Assembly: GCA_900696615.1 (NCBI GenBank)
Contig: CAADGS010000066.1
Coordinates: 1-50,666, forward strand
Direction of reading: 5' to 3'
Source: an uncultured beta proteobacterium
GTDB lineage: Bacteria > Pseudomonadota > Gammaproteobacteria > Burkholderiales > Nitrosomonadaceae
DNA: 50,666 bases
Position 1 is the first letter of the stretch; each line of letters begins with the position of its first letter. Below the pieces are notes generated by a model, which ran no database searches, was not told the DNA's origin, and saw nothing but the letters and a program-made list of their open reading frames with translations. Made by a program: the position numbers and the translations under genes. This document shows positions 5,514 to 18,603 of this stretch, in pieces.

Positions 5514-5734
5514 TTGGATAACTGATTCCACGTATTTCGAATTCTACTATCCCTTTTTCAACAGAATTTCTCCTTAATTGTATGCATAAATCCAGCTATC
5601 TGGGATTGTTATTTTTAGATGAAGCATAAAGAAATGCCAGCGGTTGATTTGTCAGTTCGTTATTAGAATTTTTATAACATGTTGTCACAGATGCGGTAGC
5701 ATAACGTCATTTTACAAGAAGCTAATTATTGATT

Positions 5735-9185: not shown

Positions 9186-9442
9186 AGGAGTTTGTCATCG
9201 CTAGGTCAATTTTGGTGCTTTCAGTTTATGATTGCATGTTGTAGAAAGATTATGTGAATTCGTGATTTTAGTTAGCTGTATGATTATAAATAAATATATT
9301 AATATTTTATAAAGTTATGCCTATATCGTTTAATCTTGTGAGCTACGGATGCAATATCCTTTTGTATTTTACAAAAATTTTATACATGTTAGCCTAAACT
9401 TTTGTAAATCATGTTTAATTATTGATAGAAAGGTTGGCAATT

Positions 9443-10009
9443 CTGGCAACACGAGAAGAACTTTCAGATTTTTTAATTGAAATCGAGCGGCGAGCGTACA
9501 AACAAGCTTTGTTTGCGGTACAAGATGAACAAGCTGCTTTGGATATCGTTCAAGATTCCATGATGAAACTTACGGTGAAGTATGCTTCAAAACCGGTAGA
9601 GGAGTTACCTCTGCTGTTTCAGCGAATACTACAAAACACTATTCGTGATTATTACCGACGGCAGAAGACCCGTTCATTATGGATTACGTTGTTTTCAGCA
9701 TTAATGCCAAGCGATCAAGACAAGGATCAAGAAGACACTGATTTTCTAGAAACTTTACCAGTAAAGCAAAAATCCAAAGAGCCTGAAGCTCAGCTTGAGA
9801 AAGCACAATTAATTGATTTAATTGAAGAAGCAATTAAAATTCTTCCCGTGCGTCAACGCGAAGCATTTATACTGCGTTATTGGGAAGAATTGAGTTTGGC
9901 GGAAACGGCAGCAATAATGAAATGTTCGGAAGGAAGTGTAAAAACGCACTGTTCAAGAGCGGTTCACACGCTGGCTTCGATACTCGGTGAAAAAGGGGTT
10001 AAATTATGA
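9443..10009 (+). CDS. ECF-like sigma-70 family RNA polymerase sigma factor
   Basis: About 190 residues, with a region 2 segment (ALDIVQDSMMKL, FQRILQNTIRDYYRRQK) and a region 4 helix-turn-helix (LPVRQREAFILRYWEELS then ETAAIMKCSEGSVKTHCSRA), the two-domain layout of ECF factors. No ATG fits. Betaproteobacterial relatives begin M-A-T-R-E-E-L, which aligns with CTG at 9443 or ATT at 9440; GAAAGG at 9428-9433 is placed for either. A TTG at 9422 leaves no ribosome site. The stop overlaps the next gene by four bases, so they are translationally coupled. Family members occur next to DUF3619, which may act as its membrane partner. Target promoters are unknown. Confidence 0.85.
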   Translation: MATREELSDFLIEIERRAYKQALFAVQDEQAALDIVQDSMMKLTVKYASKPVEELPLLFQRILQNTIRDYYRRQKTRSLWITLFSALMPSDQDKDQEDTDFLETLPVKQKSKEPEAQLEKAQLIDLIEEAIKILPVRQREAFILRYWEELSLAETAAIMKCSEGSVKTHCSRAVHTLASILGEKGVKL

Positions 10010-10620
10010 ACGAGCAAGAGTTAGGTAAAAAAATTGCAAAGCTATTGGATGCTGGTGCAAGTGAGAATATTAAGCAAAGTACGCTCTATCGGTTGCAATC
10101 TGCTCGTCGCTTGGCTCTGGAGAATTGCCAATCTAGCTATGAAATCATTAATTCAGGTAACGGTACTTCCGCCTTCGGTGAACATGATTCGCATCATTTT
10201 CATACTGGGAAATTGATATTGCTATTAATTATGTTGTTTGCTTTCGCTCTGGTTTCTGCGACTTATTGGCAATTTCTAGAAAAGGGTAAATCCGCTGTAG
10301 AAACTACGGTGTTAATTGATGATAAATCAACAAATGCAGTTTTGGATAATGAACAAGAATCAAGTGATGAATCATCAATAGAGACATACATTGATAATGT
10401 GCTCCAGTTGGTCGATGAATTGTCAACAGACGATCAAATTGACCATGAATCAGAGCAGGATGATGACGTGTCGACTGATGCTTATATCAATGATGAAACA
10501 ATATCAGAAGATGATGGTTCATTAGAAACTCGAAGTGATGATGAATTTGATCTGGATATGGATTCGCAGTCGAACGAACATATCGACAATGAAATTGAGG
10601 AAAGTTTAGTTATTCAATAA
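10006..10620 (+). CDS. DUF3619-type membrane protein with long acidic tail
   Basis: The N-terminal part (GKKIAKLLDAG, IKQSTLYRLQSARRLALE) matches the DUF3619 family that follows this sigma factor in betaproteobacteria. One membrane segment lies at about 67-88, giving a cytoplasmic N-terminus and presumably periplasmic C-terminus. Family members usually end shortly after the helix, near 130 residues; this one has 204, and its last 103 residues contain 37 Asp/Glu against 2 Lys/Arg, with loose repeats of the SDDE/IETYIDN kind. Translational coupling to the sigma factor suggests an anti-sigma-like role, an inference only. The tail looks like a local low-complexity expansion. Confidence 0.7.
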   Translation: MNEQELGKKIAKLLDAGASENIKQSTLYRLQSARRLALENCQSSYEIINSGNGTSAFGEHDSHHFHTGKLILLLIMLFAFALVSATYWQFLEKGKSAVETTVLIDDKSTNAVLDNEQESSDESSIETYIDNVLQLVDELSTDDQIDHESEQDDDVSTDAYINDETISEDDGSLETRSDDEFDLDMDSQSNEHIDNEIEESLVIQ

Positions 10621-10849: not shown

Positions 10850-13147
10850 ATGCAGCAGTTTCATCATTTTTCAATCGATCATTTATCGCAAACTTGGAGT
10901 GAGGCTATCAAATCACAATTAAACGATGAGGAAAATGTGATGGCTTGGATTGAAACTGATCTGGATTTGCAATTGCATTTTTCAAAAGGTATTGTGGTTG
11001 TTACCAATCAACGCTTGTTGGCTAAAATGTATGCCAGTGATATATGGCAAACATGGTCTTATCGGCAGGACCTACTGCTGATTCAACGCGATCATGCAGG
11101 GATAGGGTGTTTAGAGTTGTTCGATGCGCATTCGCGGTTGGCGCATTGGCGCTACCGATTAGGTAACGATAGTGCAGTTAATCGGTTGATTGCATCCTTT
11201 ACTCAACAACGTGACAGCCATTTTACAACCAGTGGGCCTCCTCGAATTGCAGATGCACTAAATCAGTGCTCAGCCTGTGGTGCTGTGATGGCCACAGGAC
11301 AGAGTGAATGCCCGGTTTGTGAAAAACAAAACAACGTTCCGCCATCCACATGGACGTTACTGCGATTGTGGCGTTTCGCAAAGCCATATCAAGGGCGCCT
11401 ACTGATTGGATTTTTGTTAACGCTATGTAGCACTGCGGCAACACTGGTACCGCCTTATTTGACCATGCCGCTAATGGATAATGTGTTAATACCTTATCAA
11501 AACGGCCGCCCGATCAATAACGAATTAGTCGCATTGTATCTCTCCGGATTGCTGGGTGCATCTGTTCTGGCTTGGGTGCTGGGATGGGCAAGAACTTATA
11601 TGCTGGCGCTTGTATCCGAGCGTATCGGCGCCGATCTTCGTACAACTACTTATGAACACTTACTTAATCTTTCCCAGGAATATTTCGGCGGTAAACGCAC
11701 TGGGGATTTGATGGCGCGCATCGGTGCTGAGACCGATCGAATCAATCTATTTCTTTCTTTGCACTTACTTGATTTCGCCACAGATGTCATCATGATTGCA
11801 ATGACCGCAGTAATTCTGATCTCAATCAATCCTTGGTTGGCATTAGTGACGCTGGTGCCGCTTCCTATTATTGCTTGGTTAATTCATCTGGTTCGTGACC
11901 GTTTAAGAATTGGTTTTGAGAAAGTCGATCGTATTTGGGCTGAAGTAAACAATGTACTTGCTGACACCATTCCAGGTATACGAGTTATTAAAGCGTTTGC
12001 TCAAGAAAAAAGAGAGGCGGCGCGTTTTCATGCTGCAAATCAAAGAAATTTGCAGATCAATGACCGCGTAAATCGAATTTGGTCATTATTTACACCGACA
12101 GTGACTTTATTAACTGAGGTGGGGTTATTGGTTGTGTGGGTATTTGGCATTTGGCAAATATCGAATGATGAAATTACGGTCGGTGTGCTAACCGCTTTTC
12201 TTGCCTATATCGGCCGGTTTTATATCAGATTGGATTCGATGAGTCGCATTGTATCGATCACACAAAAAGCTGCCGCTGGAACTAAACGTATTTTCGATAT
12301 CTTGGATCATGTCTCTAGCGTTCCGGAATCTCCTAATCCTGTTCATTTGAAAACAGTGAAAGGTCAGATCGAGCTGCGCAACGTTGGTTTTCGTTACGGA
12401 ACACGTACTATCGCGCATGATATCAATCTTGAGATCAAACCGGGTGAAATGATCGGCTTGGTTGGACACAGCGGTTCGGGGAAAAGTACATTGGTGAATC
12501 TAATTTGCCGTTTTTATGATGTGACCGAAGGAAAAATTTTAATCGATGGGTATGATATCCGATCATTGCCCGTTACTGAATATCGCAAACATATTGGTTT
12601 GGTGCTCCAAGAGCCTTTTCTATTCTATGGCACTATTGCGGAAAATATTGCTTATGGTAAACCCGATGCAACGCATGCTGAAATTGTGTCGGCTGCGCGT
12701 GCAGCGCACGCCCATGAGTTTATTCTGCGCTTACCGCATGGATATGATTCGCTTGCTGGCGAGCGGGGGCAAGCGCTTTCAGGGGGAGAGCGCCAGCGCA
12801 TCTCAATAGCACGCGCGCTATTAATTGATCCACGTATCTTAATACTGGATGAAGCGACTTCTTCAGTGGATACAACTACTGAGAAGGACATTCAGAAAGC
12901 CTTGGATAACCTCGTGCGTGGTCGTACGACGATTGCGATCGCACATCGTTTATCTACCTTGCAAGAAGCCAATCGACTGATTGTGCTTGATCGTGGCAGA
13001 GTTGTTGAGATCGGCAATCATTCGGAACTAATGTCGCGAGAAGGTTATTATTACCGCCTGTATCAGGCTCAAGCCCGTAATGTCGATGACGAAGATCGGG
13101 GATATGCTCCGCGCATCGAACATAGTGCAGCAGGGGAACTTAAGTGA
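10850..13147 (+). CDS. Cyanophycin-operon ABC exporter with N-terminal zinc ribbon
   Basis: A fused permease-ATPase half-transporter of 765 residues. Residues 1-120 form an extra soluble domain of unknown role, then a zinc ribbon (C140-x2-C143-x10-C154-x2-C157), then a six-helix exporter domain (about 183-460) and an ATPase domain with Walker A GHSGSGKS at 539-546, signature LSGGE at 643-647 and Walker B ILILDEA at 663-669. All ATPase motifs are intact. It overlaps the DUF1854 gene by four bases and precedes the two cyanophycin synthetases; databases call this type 'cyanophycin metabolism-associated ABC transporter'. Substrate is unknown. Not a lipid flippase by any direct evidence, though MsbA-like exporters are its nearest general relatives. 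Confidence 0.88.
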   Translation: MQQFHHFSIDHLSQTWSEAIKSQLNDEENVMAWIETDLDLQLHFSKGIVVVTNQRLLAKMYASDIWQTWSYRQDLLLIQRDHAGIGCLELFDAHSRLAHWRYRLGNDSAVNRLIASFTQQRDSHFTTSGPPRIADALNQCSACGAVMATGQSECPVCEKQNNVPPSTWTLLRLWRFAKPYQGRLLIGFLLTLCSTAATLVPPYLTMPLMDNVLIPYQNGRPINNELVALYLSGLLGASVLAWVLGWARTYMLALVSERIGADLRTTTYEHLLNLSQEYFGGKRTGDLMARIGAETDRINLFLSLHLLDFATDVIMIAMTAVILISINPWLALVTLVPLPIIAWLIHLVRDRLRIGFEKVDRIWAEVNNVLADTIPGIRVIKAFAQEKREAARFHAANQRNLQINDRVNRIWSLFTPTVTLLTEVGLLVVWVFGIWQISNDEITVGVLTAFLAYIGRFYIRLDSMSRIVSITQKAAAGTKRIFDILDHVSSVPESPNPVHLKTVKGQIELRNVGFRYGTRTIAHDINLEIKPGEMIGLVGHSGSGKSTLVNLICRFYDVTEGKILIDGYDIRSLPVTEYRKHIGLVLQEPFLFYGTIAENIAYGKPDATHAEIVSAARAAHAHEFILRLPHGYDSLAGERGQALSGGERQRISIARALLIDPRILILDEATSSVDTTTEKDIQKALDNLVRGRTTIAIAHRLSTLQEANRLIVLDRGRVVEIGNHSELMSREGYYYRLYQAQARNVDDEDRGYAPRIEHSAAGELK

Positions 13148-13617
13148 GTCATATGCCAAAATTTCAGTTAACCCGCAATGCCTTTGGCAGGCTAGTCTTT
13201 AGAGATCAACATGGAGCAGTCCAAGAAGGTGTTGTTCCAATTAGAGGCTTTCCAATTACTAATCCCAATCAAGGAATCGCCTTGGTAGATTGTCACGGCC
13301 ATGAATTGATATGGATAGAATGTTTGGCTGTTTTGCCCGGTGATTATCGAAATCTCATTGAGGAAGAGTTATCGAGCAGGGAATTTATGCCGGAAATAAA
13401 ACGTTTGTGCAAAGTTTCGAGTTTTACTACCCCAAGTACTTGGCAAGTTGAAACGGATCGCGGGGAAGTGTTATTTGTCCTAAAAGGCGAGGAAGACGTT
13501 CGCCGATTAACGCCATCATCATTTATGATTACGGATAGTTTTGGTATTCATTTTTTGATTCGTGATCGTTTGTTACTTGATCGTAATAGCCGTAAGTTAT
13601 TGGATCATTTTTTATAA
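13144..13617 (+). CDS. DUF1854 protein of the cyanophycin operon
   Basis: A 157-residue soluble protein matching DUF1854, known from annotation as the cyanophycin metabolism-associated DUF1854 family. Recognisable segments are VPIRGFPITNPNQGIALVD, the GHELIWIE strand and, at the C-terminus, ITDSFGIHFLIRDRLLLDR-x-SRK-LD. GTG 13144 overlaps the transporter stop, so translation is coupled; an in-frame ATG at 13153 is an alternative. No catalytic motif is evident. The tight coupling suggests it works with the transporter, perhaps as an accessory subunit, by inference. Confidence 0.85.
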   Translation: MSHMPKFQLTRNAFGRLVFRDQHGAVQEGVVPIRGFPITNPNQGIALVDCHGHELIWIECLAVLPGDYRNLIEEELSSREFMPEIKRLCKVSSFTTPSTWQVETDRGEVLFVLKGEEDVRRLTPSSFMITDSFGIHFLIRDRLLLDRNSRKLLDHFL

Positions 13618-13711: not shown

Positions 13712-16036
13712 ATGCCTAATTCAAATAGCATTAATGAGAGAGATATCAAACTTATTGAAATCAAACACTTAAACGGACCCAATCTCTGGACTTATTACCC
13801 GGCTTTGGAAGCAACTGTCGATATTGGGGATTTGGAAGACTTTCCTTCCGATAAAATTCCAGGCTTTTACGAGCGTTTATCAGGATGGTTGCCATCACTC
13901 ATCGAGCACCGCTGTAGTTACGAAGAACGTGGCGGATTTCTGCGGCGGTTAAAAGAAGGTACGTGGCCTTGTCATATTCTTGAACATGTAACATTGGAGT
14001 TGCAAAATTTAGCGGGTATGCGAGGTGGTTTTGGTAGGGCGCGTGAAACCTCTGTGAGAGGTGTATATAAAGTTGCATTAAGCGCATGGCATGAAGAAAT
14101 TACACGTACTGCGTTGCATTTAGCGCGTGACCTGGTATTGGCAGCTATGAACTTCGAGCAGATACCGAATCCTTCGTATGATGTTGATGCGGCAGTTCAG
14201 CATTTACGGGATATGGTTGATTCACTTTGGCTTGGACCCTCAACAGCGTGCATTGTTGATGCCGCAACAGCGCGTAATATTCCGGCTATCCGACTTGTTG
14301 CTAAAGGAAATCTTGTTCAACTTGGATATGGCGTCCGTTGTCGGCATATTTGGACTGCGGAAACGGATCGAACACCTGCTATTGCAGAGAGTATTTCACG
14401 TGATAAGAATTTGACAAAAGCGTTATTGCAGTCTTGCGGAGTTCCGGTTCCAGAAGGATGTGTGGTTGAAAGTGCGGAACATGCTTGGGAGGCGGCTAAT
14501 GAAATTGGCTTACCGGTTGTCATTAAACCTTGTGACGGTAATCATGGTCGGGGCGTCTTTATTGAGTTAAGTCAGCGGGAAGAAATTGAGTCAGCTTATC
14601 ACGCAGCACTCAAGGAAGGCACCGGTGTGTTGGTTGAGCAATATATTGCGGGTACTGAGCATCGTTTATTAATTGTTGGCGGACAGCTTGTGGCAGCAAC
14701 CCGGGGCGATTCGGTATCAGTTATTGGAGATGGTATCTCGACGATCAGCAAATTAATTATGTTGCAAATTAATTCTGACCCTCGTCGAGGAACTACGGAA
14801 GATCATCCGTTGAACTTGATTCGCATTGATAGTGCGGCGCAAATTGAAATTGCGCGTCAGGGTTATCATAGCGATTCAGTTGTTCCTGCTGGCATCAGGG
14901 TTGTGATTCAACGCAATGGTAATCATGCGTTCGATGTGACGGATCAAGTGCATCCAAACACTGCCGCTATTGCATCACTCGCGGCGCGTGTTGTTGGATT
15001 GGATATTGCGGGTATTGATTTAGTGGCGAGCGATATTTCTTACCCATTAAGCGACCAAGGCGGCGCGATTGTCGAGGTAAACGCGGGTCCTAGTTTATTG
15101 ATGCATATTAAACCTGCGGTAGGCACACCTCGGCCCGTAGGTAAAGCAATAGTTACACATCTTTTTCCAAATCACGACAATGGTCGCATTCCTATCGTCG
15201 GAATTAGCGGTAGTTATGGCAAAACAGCCGTTTCGTATTTGGTTGCAAGGCTGCTGATTCTTTCCGGAAAAAAAACTGGCTTAGCATGTAGTGATGGACT
15301 TTATCTGGATTATAGAAAAATTGATAAAAAGAACAGCGCTAGCTGGGCAGCAGCAAATCGTACCTTAATGAATCCAACTGTTGAGGCAGCTGTGTTCGAG
15401 AACGGTTTTGACGTGCTTATGAATGAAGGGTTAGCTTACGATAGCTGCGATGTAGGTGTAATCACTAATGTTGATGCGTCTTATCATTTTAATCGGCATG
15501 GTGTTGAGACACATAAGCAAGTTTTCAATGTACTGCGGACACAAGTTGATGTGGTGACACCTACATCTGCAGCGGTTGATGACGTGGAAAAAGATATCCG
15601 CCTACCTATTGGTGCTGCGATTCTCAATGCTAAAGATGAAATATTGGTGGAAATGTCTGAGCTGTGCCACGGTGAAGTTATTTTCTTCAGTACCGAGCCA
15701 GATTTACCGGTGATCACTCAACATCGTATCAGCGGGACAGGCCCTACGCAGGGTAAACGAGCCGTGATACTACGAAATAACAGCTCTATTGTGCTGGTTA
15801 CCGGTGCTTATGAATTACCGTTGATTAAATTGACGGACATATTCTCAGATATCACTGGGCACAGTTTGCAAGAGATAGAGAACATCTTGGCCGCTATAGG
15901 TGCTGCCTGGGCGTTGGGTATTAGGTCTGATCTTATACGGATTGGGATTGCAGCCTTTGGATTTACTCAAAATGAATATAAACCGGAAAATCAGGATTAT
16001 TTTGCTAATCTACAAATTCAAGGAATCAAATTATGA
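13712..16036 (+). CDS. Cyanophycin synthetase paralogue with truncated, degenerate Mur-ligase half
   Basis: First of two tandem synthetase genes, 774 residues. The N domain (1-165) keeps H88-x2-E91-H92 in CHILEHVTLELQ. The ATP-grasp domain (about 220-485) looks intact (VVIKPCDGNHGRGV, LVEQYIAG, EVNAGPS). The Mur-ligase-like half is eroded: the P-loop reads GSYGKTA (500-506) where active enzymes have GTNGKTT, and the ETARGG motif is ENGFDV (563-568). The protein ends where the C-terminal Mur domain should begin. The shape recalls CphA2, which joins beta-Asp-Arg dipeptides with ATP-grasp alone, and the second cphA' copy of other betaproteobacteria. It probably cannot add arginine itself, by inference. 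Overlaps the next gene by four bases. Confidence 0.88.
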   Translation: MPNSNSINERDIKLIEIKHLNGPNLWTYYPALEATVDIGDLEDFPSDKIPGFYERLSGWLPSLIEHRCSYEERGGFLRRLKEGTWPCHILEHVTLELQNLAGMRGGFGRARETSVRGVYKVALSAWHEEITRTALHLARDLVLAAMNFEQIPNPSYDVDAAVQHLRDMVDSLWLGPSTACIVDAATARNIPAIRLVAKGNLVQLGYGVRCRHIWTAETDRTPAIAESISRDKNLTKALLQSCGVPVPEGCVVESAEHAWEAANEIGLPVVIKPCDGNHGRGVFIELSQREEIESAYHAALKEGTGVLVEQYIAGTEHRLLIVGGQLVAATRGDSVSVIGDGISTISKLIMLQINSDPRRGTTEDHPLNLIRIDSAAQIEIARQGYHSDSVVPAGIRVVIQRNGNHAFDVTDQVHPNTAAIASLAARVVGLDIAGIDLVASDISYPLSDQGGAIVEVNAGPSLLMHIKPAVGTPRPVGKAIVTHLFPNHDNGRIPIVGISGSYGKTAVSYLVARLLILSGKKTGLACSDGLYLDYRKIDKKNSASWAAANRTLMNPTVEAAVFENGFDVLMNEGLAYDSCDVGVITNVDASYHFNRHGVETHKQVFNVLRTQVDVVTPTSAAVDDVEKDIRLPIGAAILNAKDEILVEMSELCHGEVIFFSTEPDLPVITQHRISGTGPTQGKRAVILRNNSSIVLVTGAYELPLIKLTDIFSDITGHSLQEIENILAAIGAAWALGIRSDLIRIGIAAFGFTQNEYKPENQDYFANLQIQGIKL

Positions 16037-18603
16037 AAGTATTGCGTATTCGAACGTTGCGTGGACCAAATTTATGGAGTCAATATACTTCCATAGAAGC
16101 TACTATTCTTTGTAGTGAATTGGAGGCAAATATCAATAAAATACCTGCTTTTGAATTACGTTTACGTGAAGGCTTCCCAGAGATTCCCTTTCCGGAACTT
16201 GCCAGTCACCGTGAGGCTATCCCGATTGCTTGCGTGCTTGAGTCCGTTGCGCTAGGTTTGCAAGTTAAAGCTGGTTGTCCGGTAACTTTTAGTAATACGG
16301 TTAAAACACCTGAAGCAAATACATATCAAGTGATCGTAGAATACAGTGAAGAAAAAGTTGGTAAGTTTGCATTTGAAATGGCGCAATTTTTTTGTAATGC
16401 AGTTATTAAAGATACTGAATTTGATATAAATGATGCTTTGTCGAAATTGCGCGAACTTAATGAAGATATACGTTTGGGACCTAGTACGAATGCTATTGTG
16501 CAAGCCGCAGTTGCACGGGGTATTCCTTTTCGTCGACTGACCGAAGGCAGCCTAGTGCAGCTTGGTTGGGGAAGTAAGCAGCGACGTATTCAAGCTTCCG
16601 AAAGCGATATGACAAGCGCTGTTGCTGAATCAATCGTGCAAGATAAGGAATTGACTAAAACATTGCTTCATGCAGCAGGAATTCCCGTTCCACTAGGTCG
16701 AAATGTAAAAAATGCTGATGACGCATGGGCAGCGGCGTCTGAGATCGGTGCACCCGTAGTCGTGAAACCACTTGACAGTAATCAAGGTAAAGGTGTTACA
16801 GTCAATCTTGTTGATGCTGAACAAGTAAAAGCGGCTTATCTGATAGCTGCCGAGTTTAGTGACAATGTTTTGGTTGAGCGTTATGTTCCTGGATATGATT
16901 TTCGCATGCTTGTTGTTGGTAATAAAATGGTTGCGGCTGCACGACGCGATCCGCCACACGTTATTGGTGACGGGATTCATAATATCCGTAAGTTGGTCGA
17001 GCAAATTAATCGTGATCCAATGCGAGGAGAAGGTCATGTTTCTTCATTAACTAAAATTTCCATCGATGAGACTTCTTGCGCTCATTTAGCATTGCAGGGA
17101 TTAACTGCCGATTCAATCCCGGAAAAAGATGCGCGCATTGTGCTGCGTAGTAATGCTAATTTGTCAACTGGCGGGACGGCAAGCGATGTTACCGATGATG
17201 TTCATCCTGAGCTGGCAGCGCGTGTAATTGAAGCCGCAAAGATTGTGGGGTTGGATATTTGTGGTGTGGATGTTGTTTGTAATGATGTGAAACTGTCCTT
17301 AGAAGAACAGGGTGGAGGTATTATCGAAGTTAATGCTGCTCCAGGTTTGCGCATGCATTTGCAACCGTCATTTGGCACAGGACGCGCTGTAGGTGAGGCT
17401 ATTATTGAAAATATGTTTTCCAAGGGGAATGATGCGCGTATTCCGGTTATTGCGATAACAGGCACAAACGGTAAAACTACGTCTGCTCGTTTGATTGCTA
17501 ATATTCTTGATAAAAATGGTAAGCGTGTAGGTGTAGCTTGCACTGATGGAGTGTATATAAATGGGCAATGTATCGAAACTGGCGATTGCAGCGGTCCCAT
17601 AAGTGCAAGAAATATTTTGTTTCATCCGCATGTCGATGCAGCGGTCCTAGAAACAGCCCGCGGTGGATTGCTGCGTGAGGGGTTGGGATTCGATCGTTGT
17701 GATGTCGCTGTCGTAACAAATATTGGTATGGGCGATCATTTGGGTATTGCTTATGTCAATACTCCGGAAGAATTGTCTATTGTTAAACGTATTGTTGTAC
17801 AAAACGTAGCTTCAAGCGGCTATGCTGTGCTAAATGCAGCCGATCCGTTAGTAGTCAGTATGGCAGAGCATTGCCCCGGTTCGGTTATCTTTTTTGCTCA
17901 AGATGCGCATAATCCGGTACTGGCTATGCATCGCGCCCAGCATAAAAGGATTATTTTTGTTGATAATCGTAGTATCGTTGCTTTGGACGAAAAAGGCGAA
18001 TATCGCATTCCATTGAGTGAAATTCCGTTAACAAAGAATGGCAGTATTTATTTTCAAATTGAGAATGCAATGGCGGCTATTGGGGCGGGTTGGGCATTGG
18101 GGTTAGAGTGGGCAATTATTCGTAAGGGGTTGGCTGATTTTGTAAACGATGCACAGACCGCACCAGGCCGTTTTAATTTATTTAGTTACCGTAATGCTAC
18201 TTTGATTGCTGATTATGGGCATAATCCAGATGCAATAAAAGCGCTCGTATGTGCTATTGATAATATCCCATCCAAAAAGCGCTCTGTGGTTATTAGCGCT
18301 GCTGGTGACCGGCGTGATGAAGATATTCGTCAACAGACTCGAATACTTGGTGATGCATTTGATGAAGTTGTATTGTATCAAGACCAATGTCAGCGCGGCC
18401 GCGCCGATGGCGAGGTATTGTCTTTGTTACGAGAAGGACTGGGTAATGCCAAACGTACGCAGAAGGTTAGTGAGATCGTAGGTGAAGCTATTGCAATTGA
18501 TAAAGCACTATCGAACCTTGAAGATGGCGAGTTGTGTCTAATTTTGGTTGATCAGGTTGAGCAATCTCTCGGGCAAATCAATAATCGCATTGCTTTAGGC
18601 TAG
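16033..18603 (+). CDS. cphA: Cyanophycin synthetase CphA
   Basis: Builds multi-L-arginyl-poly-L-aspartate: the ATP-grasp half adds Asp to the backbone and the Mur-ligase half attaches Arg to its side chain. 856 residues, near the family length. The ATP-grasp domain (about 190-460) has VVVKPLDSNQGKGV and EVNAAPG; the Mur half has GTNGKTT at 477-483, ETARGG at 540-545, GDHLG near 567-571, and the C-terminal domain from about 710 with PGRFN, DYGHNP and GDRRDED. The N domain is divergent: the HxxEH of the upstream paralogue reads C67-V-L-E70-S71 here, losing both histidines. ATGA overlap with the upstream gene implies coupled synthesis and perhaps a complex. No cyanophycinase lies in the window. 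Confidence 0.93.
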   Translation: MKVLRIRTLRGPNLWSQYTSIEATILCSELEANINKIPAFELRLREGFPEIPFPELASHREAIPIACVLESVALGLQVKAGCPVTFSNTVKTPEANTYQVIVEYSEEKVGKFAFEMAQFFCNAVIKDTEFDINDALSKLRELNEDIRLGPSTNAIVQAAVARGIPFRRLTEGSLVQLGWGSKQRRIQASESDMTSAVAESIVQDKELTKTLLHAAGIPVPLGRNVKNADDAWAAASEIGAPVVVKPLDSNQGKGVTVNLVDAEQVKAAYLIAAEFSDNVLVERYVPGYDFRMLVVGNKMVAAARRDPPHVIGDGIHNIRKLVEQINRDPMRGEGHVSSLTKISIDETSCAHLALQGLTADSIPEKDARIVLRSNANLSTGGTASDVTDDVHPELAARVIEAAKIVGLDICGVDVVCNDVKLSLEEQGGGIIEVNAAPGLRMHLQPSFGTGRAVGEAIIENMFSKGNDARIPVIAITGTNGKTTSARLIANILDKNGKRVGVACTDGVYINGQCIETGDCSGPISARNILFHPHVDAAVLETARGGLLREGLGFDRCDVAVVTNIGMGDHLGIAYVNTPEELSIVKRIVVQNVASSGYAVLNAADPLVVSMAEHCPGSVIFFAQDAHNPVLAMHRAQHKRIIFVDNRSIVALDEKGEYRIPLSEIPLTKNGSIYFQIENAMAAIGAGWALGLEWAIIRKGLADFVNDAQTAPGRFNLFSYRNATLIADYGHNPDAIKALVCAIDNIPSKKRSVVISAAGDRRDEDIRQQTRILGDAFDEVVLYQDQCQRGRADGEVLSLLREGLGNAKRTQKVSEIVGEAIAIDKALSNLEDGELCLILVDQVEQSLGQINNRIALG

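Follow-up and report, generated by a model that had tools for sequence, protein, structure and literature searches.

The 50,666-nt contig CAADGS010000066.1 (hereafter the window), from assembly GCA_900696615.1 of an uncultured betaproteobacterium with a genome of 2.58 Mb (92.5% complete), carries two adjacent relatives of cyanophycin synthetase (CphA), which we call UP, the upstream copy, and DN, the downstream copy. Along the plus strand the genes run in the order ABC exporter-like protein, DUF1854 protein, UP, DN (Table 1; residue numbers throughout are those of SuCphA1 unless stated). The nearest relatives of the window's proteins come from Nitrosomonas, UP being 94% identical to its match in a Nitrosomonas metagenome-assembled genome (MAG); UP and DN are about 40% identical to each other, and we found no third CphA in the window's genome. 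Against TIGR02068, UP scores 697 bits, under the cut-off of 850 that DN exceeds, and it passes the broader NF010623 (1015 bits, cut-off 877).

Table 1. Features of the tandem CphA locus, in window positions
Feature	Position	Strand	Evidence
CphA-associated ABC exporter-like protein (NF052233)	10850..13147	+	NCBIfam 1409.7 bits, cut-off 880
CphA-associated DUF1854 protein (NF052234)	13144..13617	+	NCBIfam 216.9 bits, cut-off 150; Pfam DUF1854
UP, 774 aa, CphA1 relative: putative N-domain peptidase site, altered ATP-grasp acceptor pocket, apparently decayed M domain, without Mur C-terminal domain	13712..16036	+	
UP codons H66, C68, R79, H88, E91, H92 = SuCphA1 H57, C59, R70, H79, E82, H83 (Cx19HxxEH zinc-peptidase site)	13907..13987	+	alignment to 7lg5
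UP H278 = H267 of the G-domain P-loop (NHGR), a retained residue	14543..14545	+	98/103 UP
UP G332, replacing R323 (aspartate beta-carboxylate ligand)	14705..14707	+	R323 in 0/103 UP
UP deletion site of the LSTGG loop (S396)	14915..14929	+	S396 to G398 gapped in 103/103 UP
UP L463, replacing R458 (aspartate alpha-carboxylate ligand)	15098..15100	+	R458 in 0/103 UP
UP degenerate M-domain P-loop GSYGKTA	15209..15229	+	
UP ENGFDV, replacing ETARGG	15398..15415	+	
DN, 856 aa, CphA1 relative: aspartate pocket and full set of M motifs kept, complete N-domain site lost, H267Q	16033..18603	+	TIGR02068 980.9 bits, cut-off 850
DN CVLES, replacing HxxEH	16231..16245	+	complete C59/H79/E82/H83 set in 0/95 DN
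DN Q251 = H267Q (PLDSNQGKG)	16783..16785	+	Q in 92/95 DN
DN LSTGG loop kept, as are R305 = R323 and R440 = R458	17161..17175	+	95/95 DN
DN M-domain GTNGKTT, ETARGG and DH motifs kept	17461..17739	+	

That the tandem copies have lost different active sites, as the sequence-only reading of this stretch proposed, proves to hold without exception in a large family: the complete N-domain site is present in 103 of 103 UP and in 0 of 95 DN, and the losses occur together in the pairs examined, while stand-alone CphA1 enzymes retain all listed N, G-pocket and M residues (14/14). These sequences come from 34 loci gathered by scanning named genome contigs and from 75 regions fetched, one or two per genus, from the genomes searched, which numbered 369 for the class, 399 for the order (in GTDB usage, we assume, Burkholderiales) and 125 for the family (likewise Nitrosomonadaceae). 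CphA matches (E 1e-60) occur in 147 of the order genomes, with two or more in 132 (not every pair was read), in 83 of the family genomes, with two or more in 81 and a UP-like match above 1000 bits in 80, and in 18 genomes of the class sample. The motif table holds 103 UP, each longer than 600 aa and including ten extra paralogues and many near relatives from Nitrosomonas, 95 DN, each over 800 aa long and scoring above 900 bits against the window DN, and 14 stand-alone CphA1. Left out of the counts were fragments or broken copies (the UP of loci L121 and L122, the L123 UP piece, L126 and the DN of L159), incomplete DN lying at contig ends (L134, L188, L189), and ATP-grasp or Mur proteins of other kinds, second Mur ligases among them (for example the second genes of L128, L219 and L220, together with L135 and L222-L224). 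The L035 protein at 5695, scoring 692 to DN and 679 to UP, was counted as UP by gene order, motifs and tree; the L216 UP is in the motif counts and absent from the 175-row tree described below.

In CphA1, cyanophycin is cut into primers by the Cx19HxxEH site, made up of C59, H79, E82 and H83, and changes at H57 and R70 likewise lowered primer-independent activity (PMC9262961). This motif is present in most, not all, CphA1; in UP its four residues, together with H57 and R70, are kept without exception (103/103). The H88-x2-E91-H92 motif first noticed in UP aligns on H79, E82 and H83, inside the known N-domain metal site, with C68, H66 and R79 also present, and its identification with the third CphA1 site (PMC9262961) holds.

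The ATP-grasp domain of UP had been read as intact, and here the reading fails: the LSTGG loop is deleted, and glycine and leucine stand at two of the positions that hold the substrate. According to PMC9427784, R323 and N394 bind the aspartate beta-carboxylate and R458 the alpha-carboxylate, S396 lies in the same pocket, and H267 together with R309 contacts the acyl-phosphate. Each of R323, S396 and R458 is missing from every UP, which in this respect does not have the pocket of a CphA1. By contrast with the pocket, the ATP-binding and catalytic residues persist (K220 in 101, K261 in 102, E300 in 102, R309 in 103, E450 in 100 and N452 in 101 of the 103), as does H267 outside five loci (L205, L207, L214, L215 and L216). 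The M domain has fared differently again: GSYGKTA, ENGFDV and the absence of the Mur C-terminal domain are all as originally read, K499 remains in 48 UP, R561 in 1, D585 in 22 and H586 in 37, and UP does not have a working M domain as judged by P-loop, ETARGG, DH and Mur C-terminal domain together. Loss of the M P-loop and M lid extends from the window UP to most UPs; a C-terminal Mur stretch survives in 9 of the 80 UPs of one tree set.

Ten UPs (L026-L029, L031-L034, L036, L040) have no DN nearby, and we considered whether they might be orphans. Each of the ten genomes has a neighbouring UP and DN as well (with a cut or partial DN in G879 and G883), which makes the lone UPs extra paralogues. 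Such a paralogue away from the pair occurs in Zwartia-like and related genomes (neighbours listed for L026 only), and these ten are exactly the UPs with alanine at E87, the residue that supports H83 in SuCphA1.

CVLES does replace HxxEH in the window DN, where a neighbouring deletion removes R70; within the family it is an extreme case, the first histidine (H79) remaining in 83 of 95 DN and the glutamate (E82) in 69, next to C59 in 1, H57 and H83 in 2 each and R70 in none. Only L190 and L193 have H79, E82 and H83 together (2/95), without C59, H57 or R70, and may represent half-decayed N sites. All Mur motifs are in place, as had been claimed, and every DN keeps K220, K261, E300, R309, R323, N394, S396, R458, E450, N452, K499, R561, D585 and H586 (95/95), that is, the aspartate pocket and complete M motifs of a CphA1. 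The description of its ATP-grasp domain as present was right as to the pocket and overlooked one substitution: H267 is glutamine in 92 DN and histidine in three (L023, from N. eutropha, L214 and L215), a departure from CphA1. A stand-alone CphA1 on a Chryseobacterium plasmid (L268) has independently lost its N site (HxxIY, no R70) and also has Q at 267, which hints at a possible link between the two changes. Candidate cases of DN without UP dissolved on inspection, two being DN at a contig end (G858, G652) and one an incomplete genome (G723); in the last, a transposase-like open reading frame occupies the expected UP position, 5' of an intact DN (L259).

To look beyond preselected motifs, we scanned 186 columns conserved in 23 stand-alone CphA1s (the 14 above, SuCphA1 and eight plasmid-borne enzymes from alpha-proteobacteria, Deinococcus and Chryseobacterium), calling a column lost when kept in fewer than 5%. 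UP has lost 1 of 30 N-domain columns, 15 of 93 in the G domain, 7 of 48 in the M core and 6 of 15 in the M lid, against 11, 3, 3 and 0, respectively, for DN. One of the three M-core losses in DN, that of D585, is spurious: the alignment slips by one residue at GDHLG, and DH is intact in 95/95. What replaces the lost residues differs by domain: in a thinned set of 78 UP and 80 DN, the commonest replacement has a median share of 0.89 across 13 UP G-domain columns, with fixed changes including R323G, R458L, H353E, D307E, A203T and R418L, compared with 0.36 in the UP M core (15 columns) and 0.39 in the DN N domain (11 columns). Given the single, mostly fixed replacements in the one and the scattered ones in the others, the UP G pocket looks re-specialized, whereas the UP M core and DN N domain look decayed. 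Mean pairwise identity fits this picture in the M core (0.475 for UP, 0.671 for DN); in the N domain the difference is modest (0.637 and 0.574), suggesting that the DN N domain is still constrained, perhaps as a polymer anchor.

Phylogeny suggests an order for these changes. UP and DN each form one clade (support 99 and 99 with FastTree on 175 rows; 100 and 99 with IQ-TREE in quick mode on 51 rows), and in both trees they lie together across one branch from the stand-alone enzymes, where the rooting is our assumption; a single duplication of an ancestral CphA1, followed by division of its active sites between the copies, would account for the pair. In both trees the earliest branch of each clade belongs to the L035 pair, whose UP retains GTNGKST, ESGRGG, DH and a C-terminal Mur stretch, with R323, the loop and R458 already gone. 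The distribution of the Mur stretch (9/80 UPs) needs six changes on a tree of the N and G domains, at least two of them forced by well-supported branches. Together these patterns make loss of the aspartate-pocket residues the old, shared change, and the M-domain loss in UP looks later, and repeated. L035 and a further locus with a pair of the UP-DN type, L038, come from MAGs labelled Planctomycetaceae and Akkermansia; transfer and mislabelled or mixed bins are both possible explanations.

The pair can be set against several known systems. SuCphA1 (7lg5/7txv; PMC9262961) is the same three-domain protein, sharing its full Cx19HxxEH site with UP and its aspartate-pocket residues and M motifs with DN; there, all sites lie on one chain, whereas here they are split over two proteins, with H267Q in DN and R323, S396 and R458 missing from UP. 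TmCphA1 (7lgn) is like DN in retaining M motifs without the N-domain site, and differs in having been studied as a single enzyme needing added primer, whereas DN has a neighbour that bears the missing site, plus H267Q. Tandem arrangements are themselves already known: neighbouring cphA copies in non-cyanobacteria have been reported (PMC10687191, PMC4786657, PMC5178258), as have the third site and CphA2. The available text of PMC10687191 reports cphA from Nitrosomonas and, from Accumulibacter, a pair of adjacent copies, attributes the finding of neighbouring copies to Fuser and Steinbuchel (2007), and has a Group 1 cluster of neighbouring cphA copies and an ABC transporter with no cphB, an arrangement similar to ours, in which reciprocal active-site loss is not described; two cphA copies are also noted in N. 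ureae (PMC4786657). Among the literature matches listed, to which subscription papers are mostly external, we found no account of reciprocal site loss in tandem cphA copies.

Comparison with CphA2 bears directly on the suggestion, made from the sequence alone, that the first copy is a CphA2-like dipeptide polymerase. The solved CphA2 enzymes (7ta5, 8fxh), like most UPs, have neither the M lid nor a functional M P-loop (PMC9427784), the ATP-grasp catalytic residues are kept in UP, and the pair in Sideroxydans was named CphA1 and CphA2 in PMC5178258. But CphA2, described as cyanobacterial, has no N-domain motif (PMC9262961), which is found in all 103 UP; the loop deleted in UP is kept, by alignment length, in both solved CphA2s (8fxh 351-475 and 7ta5 339-463, compared with UP); R323 and R458 are lost in UP; and the trees make UP sister to DN. 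UP is also nearer CphA1 in sequence (468.8 bits, versus 196 for CphA2) and in fold (Foldseek 2.4e-52 versus 1.6e-25, from a model of middling quality). The AlphaFold2 models (DN pLDDT 67.2, pTM 0.47; UP 69.7 and 0.62) are too weak for site geometry, and the fold-level match of UP is all that we take from them. We reject membership of UP in CphA2 on the strength of the N-domain motif, and 'CphA2' as a label for the upstream gene looks wrong.

The genes upstream of the pair, which NCBI already labels 'cyanophycin metabolism-associated' (NF052233 and NF052234), follow it closely. NF052233 occurs in 134 of the 399 order genomes, every one with CphA: it is present in 132/132 that have at least two CphA matches, against 0/252 without CphA. 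The 13 genomes with CphA and no NF052233 are 11 with a single CphA1 plus two that are less than 83% complete (G501 and G652). Among 90 loci with both UP and DN, the retrieved sequence includes the ABC gene in 78, oriented opposite to the pair in 59 and alike in 19 (mostly the window's family), and DUF1854 in 75; the ABC gene may sit elsewhere in remaining genomes, such as G511 and G579. Neither gene was found beside the 14 stand-alone CphA1 genes within the sequence retrieved, which is short for some. The pattern suggests that UP and DN form one system with the DUF1854 and ABC exporter-like proteins.

Cyanophycinase (TIGR02069; CphB, CphI and CphE in PMC10206079) shows a different distribution. 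It scores above cut-off in all 11 single-CphA1 genomes of the order, which belong to two genera (six sequence-checked as ordinary CphA1, five assumed alike by genus and match count), against 10 of the 136 other CphA genomes and 6 of 252 order genomes without CphA. In the window's family it does so in 2 of 125 genomes: G818, the sole ordinary CphA1 seen among 83 CphA genomes, with cyanophycinase about 1 kb away on the same contig, and G773, which has two CphA matches. The combination of single CphA1 with cyanophycinase is seen in three lineages, by counts that ignore kinship; the window's own genome, which holds UP, gave no TIGR02069 match at E 1e-10.

From these patterns we favour, with modest confidence, a reading in which DN is the polymerase and UP an endo-cyanophycinase or primer maker with a re-specialized ATP-grasp site, the sites having been divided after duplication of a CphA1. 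DN would elongate the polymer by adding Asp and Arg, and, since it resembles TmCphA1 in retaining M motifs without the N site, is predicted to be primer-dependent by itself. UP would cut chains internally and supply primers, with zinc held by H79, H83 and C59 and E82 as base; as a separate protein its cutting may be tuned independently of synthesis, and UP may therefore double as the cyanophycinase that these bacteria otherwise seem to lack. Its proposed job would be that of known cyanophycinases, but those are described as exo-enzymes (PMC10206079), whereas UP gives no TIGR02069 match and has a site of the kind found in CphA1 N domains, which are endo-acting. The conserved ATP-grasp residues and rebuilt acceptor pocket of UP suggest a second ligation, in which the chain C-terminus is plausibly still activated for an acceptor other than aspartate. 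The original proposal that primer formation and arginine addition are divided between the two proteins survives in the reciprocal loss of the complete N site; the split is not merely that, because the pocket loss is common to all UP, even those with a C-terminal Mur domain, and DN has its derived H267Q, so that the G domain is divided too. In favour of division in trans, PMC9262961 shows that an isolated N domain can serve a CphA1 that depends on primer, and reports activity for an N-G+M+/N+G-M- hybrid. The complex or obligate pair predicted from the sequence alone may exist, co-inheritance of the two genes supporting a shared function only.

Several observations weigh against this reading. 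The pocket loss is not total, since 97/103 UP have N at the position of N394, a further aspartate contact, although its placement beside the deletion is unsure; in DN, the first histidine and the glutamate of HxxEH are still present in most members. H267A impairs SuCphA1 and TeCphA1, and H267Q could weaken DN likewise, while the F or Y of GshF at this position and the Q of one stand-alone CphA1 in 23 (L268) mean that it need not kill the enzyme. In SuCphA1 hybrids, an N site on the opposite protomer gave somewhat lower primer-free synthesis (PMC9262961), and separating the site is accordingly no obvious gain. A pure peptidase role leaves the kept ATP-grasp residues of UP unexplained, and cyanophycinase is above cut-off in 10 of the 136 CphA genomes other than the single-CphA1 ones. 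Homologues from R. eutropha, which may or may not be a UP-DN pair, gave no cyanophycin (Adames 2013, as cited in PMC8560796 and PMC11362209); together with the ABC gene that accompanies the pair, this leaves room for another, possibly exported product. Finally, our counts take in close relatives, and the Fisher tests ignore kinship.

An exported product is the basis of the first alternative, which we regard as unlikely: that instead of a storage granule the four genes make an Asp/Arg-type peptide, short or altered, which UP trims and may also cap before the ABC protein exports it. The presence of the ABC family in every genome with two or more CphA matches and in none without CphA, its resemblance to MsbA-type exporters, the absence of cyanophycinase from most genomes with two or more CphA matches, the report on R. 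eutropha and the seemingly rebuilt acceptor pocket of UP are all consistent with such a peptide; retention of aspartate-pocket residues and M motifs in DN argues against it, and the direction and cargo of transport are guesses from family resemblance. A more elaborate form, which we consider unlikely, would make UP a two-activity tailoring enzyme whose N domain cuts DN's chain into short pieces and whose ATP-grasp site joins the activated C-terminus of a piece to a non-aspartate acceptor, as the loss of two carboxylate-binding arginines and the gain of an acidic residue at H353 might indicate, the modified peptides then being exported by the ABC protein as an unrecognized secreted product, in many beta-proteobacteria, and not deposited as a granule.

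Quite improbable, in our view, is that UP is a catalytically inert partner kept only for assembly or regulation of DN. Its decayed M domain and missing aspartate-pocket residues would fit, and a mixed UP:DN oligomer is plausible given that CphA1 is a tetramer with G-G dimers (PMC9427784); UP and DN distances also correlate (r 0.534, versus a maximum of 0.293 in 1000 shuffles), as common descent alone can produce. An inert scaffold, however, needs neither zinc-site residues in 103/103 UP nor ATP-site residues in 100 to 103. That UP joins beta-Asp-Arg dipeptides in its G domain, as CphA2 does, is very improbable, and we retain it as a mechanism only.

If UP is indeed the cutting enzyme, the pair speaks to two questions. 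In a single-chain CphA1 the balance of synthesis and cutting cannot be set by expression level (PMC9262961); separation into UP and DN would let the cell regulate cutting alone, offering a natural test of the primer model. In addition, cyanophycinase was found in 2.8% of 903 CphA1-bearing beta-proteobacterial genomes, for which unknown isozymes were proposed (PMC10206079), and UP is a testable candidate to fill that stated gap. Where annotation gives a genome two cyanophycin synthetases, only one of them may be a synthetase and the other an enzyme of another type.

The layout of the pair is constant in one respect and variable in another. UP lies 5' of DN on the same strand at 90/90 loci with both. 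The translational coupling first suggested for them fits the ATGA overlap in the window (16033-16036), and as a general feature it is ruled out by spacing, which is exactly -4 nt in 15 of 90 pairs, with a median gap of 31.5 nt. In one genome (G843) both copies are broken together, or misassembled. Elsewhere (L128, L219, L220, L222 and L223) an ordinary CphA1 is followed by a separate second Mur-type ligase with GTNGK, ARGG and DH motifs. In the window, an ECF-type sigma factor and a DUF3619 protein (9422-10620) lie immediately 5' of the ABC gene, whose product is extended at the N terminus by about 165 residues, including a CxxC...CxxC stretch that could be a zinc ribbon.

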